From Pectobacterium aroidearum (GTDB lineage Bacteria > Pseudomonadota > Gammaproteobacteria > Enterobacterales > Enterobacteriaceae): a stretch of 64,000 nt of DNA. Made by a program: the position numbers and the translations under genes. Positions 17,801-33,511 of this stretch are shown one piece after another. The first letter of the stretch is position 1. Every line of letters begins with the position of its first letter. Below the pieces are notes generated by a model that was given only the letters and a program-made list of their open reading frames with translations, searched no databases and was not told the origin of the DNA. The DNA lies in the NCBI RefSeq assembly GCF_015689195.1, contig NZ_CP065044.1, positions 1,240,001-1,304,000 of the forward strand. The letters are read 5' to 3'.

Positions 17801-20125
17801 CCGGTCATGTTCCGGTATGACGACCTTGATCGCCTGACGGAGCGGCATATCGGGCATGAGGCTGGCGTACAGGTTCGGCGCTGGGAGTATGACGGCGTGC
17901 GTGAGTCACCGTCGAAAGTGGTGTATGAAGACGGCAGCGAGACGCGGTTTGGTTACGATGTGGAAGGTAACCTGACGGCGGTGACGGATGCGCTGGGTCA
18001 GCGCTATCAGTTCCGCTACGGGGCGTTCGATAACCTGCTGGAAGCGACCGACCCGCTGGGAGCGACGGTGCGCTATCACTACAATGCGGAAGCCGAGTTC
18101 GCCGGGGTGACGAACAGCCAGGGACGGGACTGGACGTACGGCTTTGACAGCAGTGGACGGTTGAGCGAGGAACGGCATTACGACGGTCGGGTATACCGGT
18201 ATCAGTACGATGTGGCCGACCGCTTGGTGCAGCGCACCGCGCCGGATGGCAGTGCGCTGCATTATGAGCACGATGCGGCAGGGCGGATAACGTGTATCAC
18301 GGCGCGGAAAGCGGACGGGGAAACGGACGGCATCACCGAGCTGGCATATGATGTTGCCGGTAGGCTGACCAAAGCCGCCAGCCCGGATGCGGTGGTGGAA
18401 TACGCCTATAACCGTGCGGGGCAGGTGACGTCGGAAACGGTGAACGGCGAGGCGGTGCAGAGCGGTTACGACGCGGGTGGTCAGCGTGCCATTGTCGACG
18501 GTATTCTGGCGCCGCTGCAACTGGCCTGGCAGTCGGGACGGCTGTCATCGCTGGGTATCGGCTCTCACCAGCCGTTGCAGTTCAGCCACACGGCAGCAGG
18601 GGAAGAGCAGCGACGCACTAACGGCAGCGGTTTTTCACTGCGTCACGAGTGGAGCCCGACGGGGCTGTTGCAGCGTCAGGCGCTGGAAGGGGCAGACGGC
18701 CGGGTGAATGACGTGCTGGAGCGTCGCTACCAGTACGATGTGCTGGACCGTCTGACGGGCATCAGCGACAGCCACTGGGGTGAGCAGGCATTCCGGCTGA
18801 ACGGGGCCGGTCAGGTGACGGCGGAGCGCCGTGATGAGGGGCGGCGGCGTCAGGCGCGGCTGTTTGGCTACGACAGCGAACAGAACCTGTGCGAAGTGTC
18901 ACAGATAGCGCCGGGTCTGGGTGAGACGCTGAAAGTGCAGGATGCGGTGGTACAGTCATCGGCGCGGTACGATGCTGCGGGACGGGTCATTGAGCGGGGC
19001 CATACACAGTACCGGTATGATGACTGCGGGCGTCTGGCAGTGAAGCGTGAAACGCGGTCGGGGTTCAGACCGAAGGAAACGTATTTTGAGTGGGACGTGC
19101 AGGACCGGCTGGTGCGGGTAAGTCTGCCGGACGGGGCACGCTGGCGGTATCGCTACGATGCGTTTGGGCGCAGAATCAACAAGGTGCGCGAGGGCCAGGT
19201 TCCGTCGGCGCAGGCGGTAGCGCGGGTGGCGTACCGGTGGGACGGTGACCAACTGATTGGTCAGCAGCAGTACCGGGCAGACGGTTCAGCGGCACGGGAA
19301 GTGCAGTGGGTGTACGAGCCGGGAAGCTTCCGGCCGCTGGCACAGGTGGAGGCGCAGGGCGACAGCACGCAACTGCACTACATCGTGACGGACCTGACAG
19401 GAACCGCAAGAGAGCTGTGCAGCGAGGAAGGGGAAGTCCGCTGGCGCGGGGAACAGGGACTGTGGGGCGCACACCGGGAAGAGCGGCGACCTATCCCGCT
19501 GCGTCGCTATCTGGGGGATGCGGCGAACGAAGAAGTGTACTGCGAGCTGCGCTATCAGGGGCAGTTGTATGACGCAGAAACGGGGCTTTACTACAACCGG
19601 CATCGTTACTATGATGCGGAGAGCGGACAGTATCTGTCGCCGGACCCGATAGGGCTGCTGGGTGGTAGAAGGGCATATGGTTATGTAAAAAATCCGCTCA
19701 GTTGGGTAGATCCCCTTGGATTGACACCGAAGGAAACAATAACGTACCGAGGGGATTCAAGAGATCCTAATACTATTTTTAATGAGGGTTTTCAGCCTTG
19801 GGGGGATAGTAATGATCTTTTTAAACACGCTTCCGATAATACATCTCCCCCTAGTAATTTTATAAGCACATCTAAATCACCAGAAGTAGCCGCAGAATTT
19901 GGTTCGCAGCTCTATACAGAAAGTGGCTATGTGTACGCTATAAGATCTAATAATGGCATAGATGTTAATTCTGTATTGGGAAAAGCGACACCATTCCCTC
20001 GTGAATTAGAGGTCGCAATTCCTCGGGGAGTTAAACCAGAGAATGTATTAGGTGTAACTCCGGTTAATGCCGATGGAACTTTTGGAAATTATAGTATATT
20101 AAATCCTAAGCATTATGGGTGGTGA
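14849..20125 (+). CDS. rhs: Rhs-family T6SS effector with an ADP-ribosyltransferase-like tip
   Basis: 1,758 residues. The N-terminal region has CTTCGC (Cys 30, 33, 35) and a beta-sandwich-like segment. Hydrophobic segments lie near residues 200-225 and 245-265. A Ser/Pro/Lys/His-rich linker (about 470-580) leads into the YD-repeat Rhs cage (about 580-1600), which ends at DPIGLLGG with Asp 1599. The tip has the R-S-E layout of ADP-ribosyltransferases: YRGD with Arg 1634, STS at 1673-1675, and E-L-E at 1719-1721. The tip DNA is AT-rich, unlike the GC-rich core, as usual for exchangeable Rhs tips. The border coincides with the end of a mobile element. Toxin class is inferred from motifs. Confidence 0.93.
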   Translation: MSQDKSSALAASGDAAKHNFATDNKISGGCTTCGCEILVYYHYDSGDPIPNAPFQLTDSRDHKIEGKTDDNGMFFIHDMGCSTYELILGEGSDTFDPKKTVQNNPVLMSNPAYASFAGEYFSLFVILRAQGLVEYGSVQQSVRMPLSTIPDQYKPALKRFWELERQLYRSDGELQREIRRIQHQQAAEVASKASSIDNAVLLFCEVILGCIPVVGQAMDVYFLGKWCWDSYETPELLKDTMHQIDGVLCVIGFVPGVGDALKVSGNAITQALRKLKGAKGNKQQNIEEATQIIRRLSNGNIVNWLMGIRSDIRIYADKGQKILETMKAALDLLVKGVSGERSWIVVLMADSFRAMVNVLEKLISMFTVVTGLIEAEFAEFIPQIMTQVIGSARPKGSCELSAMTVQKGGSGDYRTEEEITEFNQRAEKPSGLTMAEVGMVSSIGILSAMSGKGGKNRIGMASQGGKPSTSASHASQRPPTPSEQHHSTSAETPKPQDKPQPKSTDSSQKSQPHEAEKHSSGENKHTPDGATPLPDGTHTVTAGARKPKQNVDEAAQKKAQEQNEDAKSDPKNGKQNGDPVDMATGAVVEQRTDIQVSSPLPLSLQRYYRSTGKRHSGLLGTLWRTNWDISLTLNDGVATLTDGEFNQAFFTLPNEGEFSRSTSNPQWRLTRQQGELVLHHVGGLLYRFEYALGLQLCLTSIDDAAGHRVAFEWVLGELHWVTLSDGRLVHVTSEHQRITALTLCTPQRQRLKTLASYSYDKRGHLLSVRADEGRNFDYRYSPEGWMLRWSDLGSTWVEHDYDKKGRAIRDRTSEGYWPGHFEYDDDTLTSHYHSGFGGVFSYVRDERNNILLERTPDGGETRFEWVDNQLAAETDPLGGRTVYQRNDWGQVTEVILPDGATHQYAYDDNGHLLAYIDPLGSEWRYQRNAAGQVVEVNDPEGREWLYRYGDMGQLSTVIGPDGVLQRYHYNRRGLLSSLERDNAPPVMFRYDDLDRLTERHIGHEAGVQVRRWEYDGVRESPSKVVYEDGSETRFGYDVEGNLTAVTDALGQRYQFRYGAFDNLLEATDPLGATVRYHYNAEAEFAGVTNSQGRDWTYGFDSSGRLSEERHYDGRVYRYQYDVADRLVQRTAPDGSALHYEHDAAGRITCITARKADGETDGITELAYDVAGRLTKAASPDAVVEYAYNRAGQVTSETVNGEAVQSGYDAGGQRAIVDGILAPLQLAWQSGRLSSLGIGSHQPLQFSHTAAGEEQRRTNGSGFSLRHEWSPTGLLQRQALEGADGRVNDVLERRYQYDVLDRLTGISDSHWGEQAFRLNGAGQVTAERRDEGRRRQARLFGYDSEQNLCEVSQIAPGLGETLKVQDAVVQSSARYDAAGRVIERGHTQYRYDDCGRLAVKRETRSGFRPKETYFEWDVQDRLVRVSLPDGARWRYRYDAFGRRINKVREGQVPSAQAVARVAYRWDGDQLIGQQQYRADGSAAREVQWVYEPGSFRPLAQVEAQGDSTQLHYIVTDLTGTARELCSEEGEVRWRGEQGLWGAHREERRPIPLRRYLGDAANEEVYCELRYQGQLYDAETGLYYNRHRYYDAESGQYLSPDPIGLLGGRRAYGYVKNPLSWVDPLGLTPKETITYRGDSRDPNTIFNEGFQPWGDSNDLFKHASDNTSPPSNFISTSKSPEVAAEFGSQLYTESGYVYAIRSNNGIDVNSVLGKATPFPRELEVAIPRGVKPENVLGVTPVNADGTFGNYSILNPKHYGW
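19643..19665 (+). other. Left attachment site (attL-like) at the Rhs core/tip border
   Basis: First of three copies of a 23-bp sequence beginning GACCCGATAGGG. The codons read D-P-I-G-L-L-G in the Rhs frame. To the left is the GC-rich rhs core; to the right begins the 6,705-bp repeat unit. The base before GACCCG differs from the other two copies, so identity starts exactly at the spacer. Confidence 0.8.
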
Positions 20126-33052: not shown

Positions 33053-33511
33053 GACCCGATAGGGCTGCTGGGTGGCATTCGACCTCAAGCCTACGTTCAC
33101 AATCCGTTAGAGTGGTGTGATCCCTTTGGATTATCTTTAATTAGCCCAAAAACTATTCTTTTTTCTCAAGACAGTATTGCTGGTTCATTTTCGGATGGTG
33201 GTTCAATAAATGAATTAGTACATAGATTGAAAAACAATCCATCCTATATAAATGAGGTTGAACCTATTAGAAAAGTCAGAATGCGTGACTTACCGACTAA
33301 TGTCCAAGAAAGGTTAATGTCCCAAGGGGCACATAAAGATTCGGTGTTTAGTTTAGATAACAGAAGATTGTATGCTGCAAAAGAGGCCGGTATTTCAAAA
33401 ATGCCTTCAAGGTGGGCAACTCCTGAGGAGTTGGCAGAGATAAATCTAAATAGACGCTTCTCCACAGAAACGGGTGGAAAAGGTATTGAAGTAAGGAAGG
33501 CTTGCGGATAA
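33014..33511 (+). CDS. Displaced Rhs tip with a different toxin, fragment
   Basis: From 33053 the frame reads DPIGLLGG, then IRPQAYVHNPLEWCDPFGLS, a normal Rhs core/tip border, then a tip unrelated to the ADP-ribosyltransferase. The tip has TILFSQDSIAGSFSDGG, EVEPIRKVRMRD and VFSLDNRRLYAAKEAGI. This FSQ-SI / PIR-V / LDNRRLYA pattern is seen in polymorphic toxin tips and loosely recalls ParB/Srx-like folds; I would not name an activity. The first 13 codons come from the element end; the GTG at 33014 has no good ribosome site. Without the insertions this tip would join the rhs core in frame, so it is most likely the former tip of that gene. Confidence 0.75.
   Translation: MRQKVRLHRSCPYDPIGLLGGIRPQAYVHNPLEWCDPFGLSLISPKTILFSQDSIAGSFSDGGSINELVHRLKNNPSYINEVEPIRKVRMRDLPTNVQERLMSQGAHKDSVFSLDNRRLYAAKEAGISKMPSRWATPEELAEINLNRRFSTETGGKGIEVRKACG
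33047..33075 (+). other. Right attachment site (attR-like)
   Basis: CCCTAT (33047-33052), GACCCG (33053-33058) and ATAGGG (33059-33064), with the 23-bp core at 33053-33075. The left flank equals the inner junction; the right flank differs from it and continues into the displaced tip. Confidence 0.8.

Follow-up and report, generated by a model that had tools for sequence, protein, structure and literature searches.

The locus

The DNA analysed here, referred to as the window, is a stretch of 64,000 nucleotides from Pectobacterium aroidearum (contig NZ_CP065044.1, positions 1,240,001 to 1,304,000), and our subject is a repeated unit that lies within it at the border between the core and the toxin tip of an rhs gene. 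An earlier interpretation made from the letters alone (the sequence-only reading) had placed two identical units of 6,705 bp at this border, and direct comparison confirmed a head-to-tail pair on the forward strand, unit 1 at 19643-26347 and its tandem copy, unit 2, at 26348-33052, with 0 mismatches. The rhs gene (14849-20125, forward strand, 1758 aa) crosses the left border in frame, from a core with RHS_repeat, RHS and Rhs_assc_core domains into the tip of unit 1, which is ADP-ribosyltransferase-like (Scabin-like, PF22596). Beyond the right border lies a displaced tip, detached from any core (33053-33511, forward strand, within the orphan open reading frame (ORF) 33014-33511), and beside it an intact ORF (33502-33876, forward strand) whose position suggests an immunity role.

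Each unit has the gene order tip, putative immunity gene, SymE-like gene, helix-turn-helix (HTH) regulator, primase, Xer-like recombinase and attachment site (att). The putative immunity gene of the new tip (20119-20523, forward strand) is proposed from its position and its overlap with the tip ORF; it had no match in Pfam, NCBIfam or PADLOC. The SymE-like gene (20599-20823, reverse strand, 74 aa) was recognised from its translation and from genes at the same place in relatives, which are annotated as SymE family. A putative SymR-like antisense RNA (20818-20893, forward strand; Rfam RF01809) lies where it would be expected, across the start of the SymE-like gene, with 40.9 bits and thus under the gathering score of 61. 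Domain scans identified the regulator (HTH_3; 20903-21313, reverse strand), and the next gene encodes a DnaG-like primase of 965 aa (21427-24324, forward strand) with a CHC2 zinc finger, a Toprim domain and a weak P-loop match near residue 570. The tyrosine recombinase (352 aa) is encoded at 24370-25428 and its second copy at 31075-32133 in unit 2, both on the forward strand. No further close copies of the element were found in the genome of the window, the next matches lying at 32-36%.

The pair could be an assembly duplication of a single unit: there are 0 differences over 6,705 bp, and other arrays are near-identical too (L095 and L221 at 100%; L and G numbers are our labels for loci and genomes). 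However, complete chromosomes carry arrays that are not identical (L098 at 98.0%, L102 at 98.6%, and G307 with different tips), and the finding is independent of copy number, so that we consider this explanation improbable.

Junctions and attachment sites

At the inner junction (26342-26359) and at the right, attR-like junction (33047-33064, followed by the displaced tip), both on the forward strand, the sequence and a pattern scan gave CCCTAT-GACCCG-ATAGGG, the arm-spacer-arm layout of the sequence-only reading; the left junction reads TCGCCG-GACCCG-ATAGGG and, as had also been stated, is shared from the first base of the spacer. The spacer GACCCG is in frame and corresponds to the Asp-Pro codons. 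Junctions 1 and 2 have 0 bp in common upstream of GACCCG, and junctions 2 and 3 have 23 bp in common downstream. This 23-bp repeat had been taken as the core of the site. The repeat is real, but in G297 the stretch shared after the border is only 11 bp long (GACCCGATAGG), and therefore the common site is the spacer plus the right arm, the remainder being similarity between tips. With this minimal stretch the attL-like junction is 19643-19653 (forward strand), that is, the GACCCG spacer with ATAGG of the right arm. Since TCGCCG of the host replaces CCCTAT at the left, the left arm comes from the element, and only the spacer and right arm are retained in the host site, where the Rhs protein motif conserves them.

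Of the 25 genus genomes, 12 contained the attR pattern (TCCCKATGAYCCGATAGG), with 29 occurrences in all against 0 of the reversed control, and the pattern is therefore not due to chance. Ten genus genomes contained both the pattern and a recombinase of the clade found at Rhs borders, two the pattern alone, none the recombinase alone and 13 neither; the two pattern-only genomes have decayed units (G151) or no recognisable unit (G315), in both cases beside intact junctions. Right borders were also located by protein motif only, and 24 of 30 distinct junctions found in this way carried an element-type left arm before the GAYCC spacer, in agreement with the expectation that the spacer would recur at junctions elsewhere. 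Among the other six, four have core sequence in place of the arm and two have a different sequence.

Two side observations concern the same motif. Draft contigs L035, L038, L040 and L050 begin exactly at GACCCGATAGG, and L038 and L050 end there too; short-read assemblies thus break at this point, an effect to be expected of multi-copy arrays or circles. At positions 2737 and 4321 of L179 (reverse strand of the G307 stretch) another sequence, ggattgttgcacaa, stands before GACCCGATAGG, and no match to the recombinase lies in the vicinity; these sites are perhaps the scar of another element type.

Empty and filled alleles

Near matches to the recombinase were present in 53 of 5,426 E. coli genomes; the 186 places concerned are all on the chromosome. 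Four element regions were examined, those of MP1, SCU-113 and JNE120442 between ansP and yddH and that of 200164 beside ybgA, which we take to be the rhsE and rhsC loci respectively. Three displaced E. coli tips were searched back and matched 6, 5 and 71 genomes, and 6 of these 82 genome matches were examined. Strain 21F61 (L232) provides the empty allele to JNE120442 (L226): 7,928 bp are present only in JNE120442, exactly at the border, the two strains being 99.7% identical over 3,976 bp up to and slightly beyond the border and 100% identical over 10,032 bp starting with the first base of GAYCCG and including the displaced tip. In 21F61 this tip terminates a full-length rhs gene, whereas JNE120442 has it as an orphan that follows the right-end arm. 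An empty site joining an rhs core to the displaced tip was what the sequence-only reading had proposed to look for, and together with the window's junctions this pair supports its view that the tip is replaced in frame and the old tip displaced with an immunity-type ORF.

The spacer is GATCCG in the empty site and in attR and GACCCG in attL, and exchange is thus placed between the last host base and spacer base 3. At this variable base MP1 has T at the left junction and C at the right; the base differs by allele, therefore only a matched empty site is informative. Strain 200164 carries the same element type at the second locus, with related units 95-99% identical in pieces. Its comparison with strain 104 was rejected as a second pair: identity begins exactly at GACCCG (99.1% over 6,138 bp), but upstream of GACCCG the two strains are unlike each other and strain 104 has a degenerate core fragment, so that the breakpoint alone is supported.

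For the window itself the matching site comes only from an element-free relative with another tip, G298 of the same species, which has no recombinase match at 1e-60 and several rhs copies with other tips. The copy beside the shared right flank is element-free and matches the window at 94.5% over 2,128 bp of core and 96.9% over 5,485 bp of flank. Tip homology was assessed by DNA comparisons, and homologues of the displaced tip (about 89-90%) were found in G307, directly behind an rhs core fragment (89.5% over 1,061 bp), and in G241, inside a unit (88.9% over 875 bp).

In G297 an identical unit (6,607-bp match, 0 mismatches) is present in two rhs genes and joined in frame in both, and a second tandem copy differs by one base. 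The two cores are barely related, the 400 residues that precede the border being 28% identical as protein and the best DNA match being 39 bp at 77%. Defined att junctions with an empty site, as in the E. coli pair, and one element at different places in one genome, as in G297, are what characterises an integrative element.

These alleles also bear on the possibility that RecA-made circles and homologous recombination between conserved rhs cores displace the tips, with the recombinase as a passenger. This route has been described for Salmonella (Koskiniemi 2014, in the accessible part of that work), the orphan tips of G307 that retain core fragments are the product expected of it, and a small Shigella circle considered below closes within homologous repeats. 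On the other hand, there is no core homology past the border at the element junctions (0 bp upstream in the window), the G297 unit is identical in two cores of 28% protein identity, and the E. coli insert is base-exact; on these grounds we regard homologous recombination as a very improbable explanation of the units.

The recombinase and its association with rhs borders

The recombinase had been described as Xer-like with all catalytic residues. It aligns with E. coli XerD (1a0p, E 6.5e-40) over the six presumed catalytic positions, which we take to be R, K, H, R, H and Y, and all six are kept, as claimed. It also meets the curated cut-off of NF002331 (PRK01287, named XerC), with 573 against 371 bits. 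In the records of relatives the labels given to the unit genes are just XerC and DNA primase, and for this reason the family is easily overlooked. Homologues were found in 26 of 295 family-sample genomes (E <=1e-70), 12 of 25 genus genomes (1e-60) and 7 of 398 phylum-sample genomes (1e-60), and the element family occurs mainly in enterobacteria.

Loci were taken from homologue searches, with 71 from genome contigs (best 80 of 128 confirmed stretches), and 128 unit records were defined by at least 40% identity plus a primase upstream, or at least 45% identity. Because unit records partly overlap (L001/L002/L105; L040/L106; L180/L120), the border-scan counts are records and not independent events. 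The right border with the element arm was recognised in 58 of the 84 unit records that extend 1,700 bp or more downstream, in a scan that filters on the left arm (the count of 24 of 30 given above was made without that filter), and the left border in 49 of the 62 that extend 6,500 bp or more upstream; the Markov control gave 6 of 4,200. The Xenorhabdus units L087 and L084 have a mixed layout, in which rhs core sequence takes the place of the short arm before the right border and is open for 326 codons in L087 and for 32 in L084.

The sequence-only reading had suggested asking whether homologues of the recombinase always lie near rhs, and the close clade does lie at Rhs borders. For 12 of the 25 genus genomes, those assembled into no more than two contigs, 9 of 11 listed Rhs-clade recombinases were within 8 kb of a listed Rhs border, compared with 1 of 61 other listed integrases; this control uses listed positions only and leaves out three frameshifted members in G313. 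The remaining two of the 11 are each the second copy of an array.

In its arm-spacer-arm layout the junction is similar to Xer sites generally, and XerC/XerD-like genes are present in the genome of the window. Recombination might then be carried out by the host XerC/XerD pair, as for dif-using elements, with the element's enzyme not involved. Host XerCD would not predict, however, that the recombinases of Rhs and VENN junctions (see below) belong to different clades, and the element's enzyme has kept the six presumed catalytic positions; we judge this possibility to be highly improbable.

A sister clade at VENN borders

Homologues about 42-50% identical, with the same gene order, are mostly not at Rhs. 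Recombinases located away from rhs had been named as a finding that would refute the proposal, and for this sister clade that is what was found; yet its units are located at the corresponding border of cdiA-type genes, that of the VENN motif, and the idea is thereby widened. In Dickeya oryzae, tandem copies 7,570 bp apart and 100% identical share the core GTTGTT-GTGGAG-AATAAC, coding for the VENN motif, and VENN-type units have the same geometry as the Rhs type, with the left arm from the element and a different one in the host gene. ORFs upstream of the units in L095 and L221 contain hemagglutinin repeats, with a PT-VENN domain at the junction, and PT-VENN was also found upstream of sister-clade units in G305, G297 and G314, the last of which has two VENN-type units and no Rhs border at E 0.001. 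In the 12 genus genomes of the integrase control, four of five listed sister-clade recombinases are near PT-VENN, versus 0 of 67 other listed integrases.

Different clades have different targets. In a phylogenetic tree with 35 unlabelled rows and long branches, 47 of 47 Rhs-labelled rows fell in one clade of 65 rows (support 100/96), and 21 of 21 VENN-labelled rows in one clade of 25 (support 100/99). From the positions of its units, the sister clade likely performs the same swap in cdiA-type genes, at their VENN border. Two deeper members have a third border, GCAAAAGGG (Ala/Gly-Lys-Gly): L199, which has PT-VENN further upstream, and L222, where the border lies in a DUF637 gene on a plasmid of Pseudomonas aeruginosa.

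Conserved coding sequence is a frequent target of integrases, the end of the gene being restored, and the unit may simply be an ordinary integrative element for which rhs is a harmless home, the tip swap being a by-product that spares the host gene. The decay of some array units would fit such an element. Against it, units have a tip and an immunity-type ORF that differ between copies, and the same layout is found again at cdiA-type VENN borders, and we think this account rather unlikely.

Two further observations were made on these loci. In L220, L221, L222 and L223 a RelE/ParE-type toxin-antitoxin pair is annotated directly behind the recombinase. A region of G305 (G305:C1:2339471-2358191) has eight PT-VENN modules in about 19 kb and no listed recombinase of the family, forming a large orphan cdiA-type array.

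Circles, plasmids and class of element

The recombinase was found in 11 plasmid records, of which 5 were examined, and two are small circles. The Lonsdalea populi circle (11,289 bp) has one unit with the recombinase and a full primase and a second with a truncated primase and no recombinase. Two tip sets and a pair of attP-like sites are present in it, and no match to an rhs core was found. The Shigella flexneri circle (8,758 bp) has the recombinase, the primase across the origin of the record, one attP-like site and one core fragment with a tip. VENN-type units are also present on conjugative plasmids of Enterobacter and Salmonella, a plausible route of these units to new cells.

Other classes of element were considered. 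No match was found among 50,697 phage records at E 1e-40, and IMG/VR gave two partial loci; a phage or satellite origin was rejected on these results. The scanned unit genes gave no match to capsid genes, and domain scans of the unit's recognised genes gave no relaxase or mating-pair genes. A CTX-like element at dif was rejected because insertion is at rhs and cdiA-type borders, and an integron cassette because each full unit has its own recombinase. Anti-phage defence was likewise discarded, the PADLOC matches being only to primase-like and HTH models.

Proposed mechanism

Insertion is exactly at the border, the new tip is in frame, the displaced tip has an intact immunity-type ORF, and an identical unit is found in barely related cores. 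Our interpretation, to which we assign a probability of about 0.87, is that the unit is an integrative element that inserts exactly at the rhs core/tip border, supplies a tip and a putative immunity gene and strands the old tip downstream, most likely through its own Xer-like recombinase acting on a circular form. The attP of this circle would be the right-end arm (CCCTAT here), the 6-bp GAYCCG spacer of the Asp-Pro codons and the right arm ATAGGG, with which the tip gene starts, and attB in the rhs gene would have the same spacer and right arm, constrained by the protein, and a different left arm. Exchange at the left edge of the spacer, presumably by the element's enzyme with the circle as donor, would fuse the new tip in frame to the host core, with the right-end arm coming to lie before the old tip. 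Tandem arrays would result from repeated insertion or from duplication. Judging from the families to which they belong, the primase may replicate the circle, and SymE/SymR may help the element to be retained. The old tip has no core and its immunity ORF is kept; therefore, provided that the new tip is made and delivered and that displaced immunity genes are expressed, the cell would switch its weapon and retain its old shield.

Several observations weigh against this interpretation. The pattern missed 26 of the 84 right junctions and 13 of the 62 left ones; some of these are variants (DPLN, TENN) or decayed, one meets masked bases and that of L199 uses the third border, and others, such as those of L089, L061 and L071, fit no recognised border pattern. 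The binding of the enzyme to an attB that has no left arm is unexplained. A strong dyad covariation of the arms was considered and dropped, the signal being weak (arm complementarity 4.0 versus 3.73 for shuffled pairings, with 21 of 2,000 shuffles equally high). The insert of JNE120442 is compound: it contains two tip sets, and the annotation gives its primase as frameshifted. For this reason the copy may not be autonomous. Since the orphan-tip string of G307 still has core fragments, homologous recombination also acts at these loci. The Lonsdalea populi record fits an excised circle and is weak evidence for one, as homologous recombination or assembly of repeats could also give it. The Shigella flexneri circle was rejected as proof of excision: it is collinear with an E. 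coli chromosomal array and, relative to SCU-113, closes inside the primase gene, and because homologous recombination or repeat assembly would give such a closure it shows no site-specific excision. Either small circle may come from the assembly of tandem repeats. Finally, the deep rows L092, L093 and L196, on the VENN side of the tree, are close to Rhs-type borders with other arms, and the target therefore does not cleanly follow the deepest split.

With the sister clade and the third border included, we think it fairly probable that these units form a family of self-replicating tip shuttles whose recombinases have been retargeted to the codons of border motifs in unrelated polymorphic toxins, Asp-Pro-x-Gly in Rhs, Val-Glu-Asn-Asn in cdiA-type genes and Ala/Gly-Lys-Gly at the third border. 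Such a family would spread tips between strains and species, bank old immunity genes and drive much of the tip diversity of enterobacteria.

Relation to known systems

Homologous recombination between cores has so far been the explanation for a change of tip that leaves the delivery part untouched. A dedicated element with an intragenic target would explain base-exact borders and exchange between barely related cores, and also strings of silent tips with intact immunity-type genes. The right-end arm before an orphan tip would then be a signature separating tips displaced by the element from those displaced by homologous recombination. In the shufflon (Rci/PilV) a tyrosine recombinase likewise alters the C-terminal part of a protein at intragenic sites; it does so by inverting resident segments, whereas here an element comes in, a distinction drawn from the general description of the shufflon and not from sequence.

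The comparisons that follow refer to the accessible portions of the papers cited. Displacement of Rhs C-termini through RecA circles between conserved cores was proposed by Jackson 2009 (PMC2935791), with the new tip on the core, the old tip moved downstream and a circular intermediate, as here; in contrast to that proposal, a recombinase gene accompanies the tip, the junctions are base-exact and the cores can be barely related. Poole 2011 suggests that toxin modules are mobile. The Aux3 element of Vibrio cholerae, linked to the type VI secretion system (T6SS), shares integrase-driven excision and integration tied to T6SS effectors, and its circle has been demonstrated by experiment; it differs in its P4-like integrase and in att sites in intergenic flanks, and that portion describes no in-frame toxin swap (PMC7721734). 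The rAID arrays of Bacteroidales contain a series of orphan immunity genes accompanied by a predicted tyrosine recombinase, but their hosts are unrelated and no insertion of a toxin tip into a weapon gene is described in the accessible text (PMC12247911).

Also related are integrase-like genes with Rhs in bee-gut bacteria, whose role was left open (Steele 2017, PMC5727410), and integrases in orphan cdi arrays, for which site-specific recombination was suggested (Ruhe 2016, PMC4927057). The association of integrases with orphan tips is the same in both, and their accessible portions describe no element, att site, junction or target rule. In Neisseria, dif sites adjoin vgrG; the paper concerned is silent on this element, and nothing on it was found in a Pantoea paper. 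A further paper was set aside, since RHS there is a catalytic motif unrelated to the element. No description of the element was found in the open-licence literature, most subscription papers being outside that search. The sequence-only reading had considered a dedicated tip-swapping element to be new; this stands for the element itself, but integrases as possible movers of toxin domains had already been raised in the accessible parts of PMC5727410 and PMC4927057. What appears to be new is the element itself, with its site, its empty allele and its occurrence in two toxin families.

Other features of the window

The HTH regulator (20903-21313) has a sub-threshold match to the VC1465 family (Xer recombination activation factor), with 32.6 bits against a cut-off of 70. 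The right end of the unit (25429-26347, 0.9 kb, no strand assigned) has no recognised gene and contains conserved blocks, the best being 25586-25610 (94% over 16 units). This block is included in a longer one, 25586-25650, which is part of an inverted CATAATGTG...CACATTATG repeat and is a candidate replication origin or RNA. Downstream of the displaced tip, a SymE remnant (33902-34079, reverse strand) is 90% identical to 20559-20736 and would be a sign of an older unit. It is followed at 34241-34874 by a Barstar-like ORF and another small ORF, which are probably orphan immunity genes without tips.

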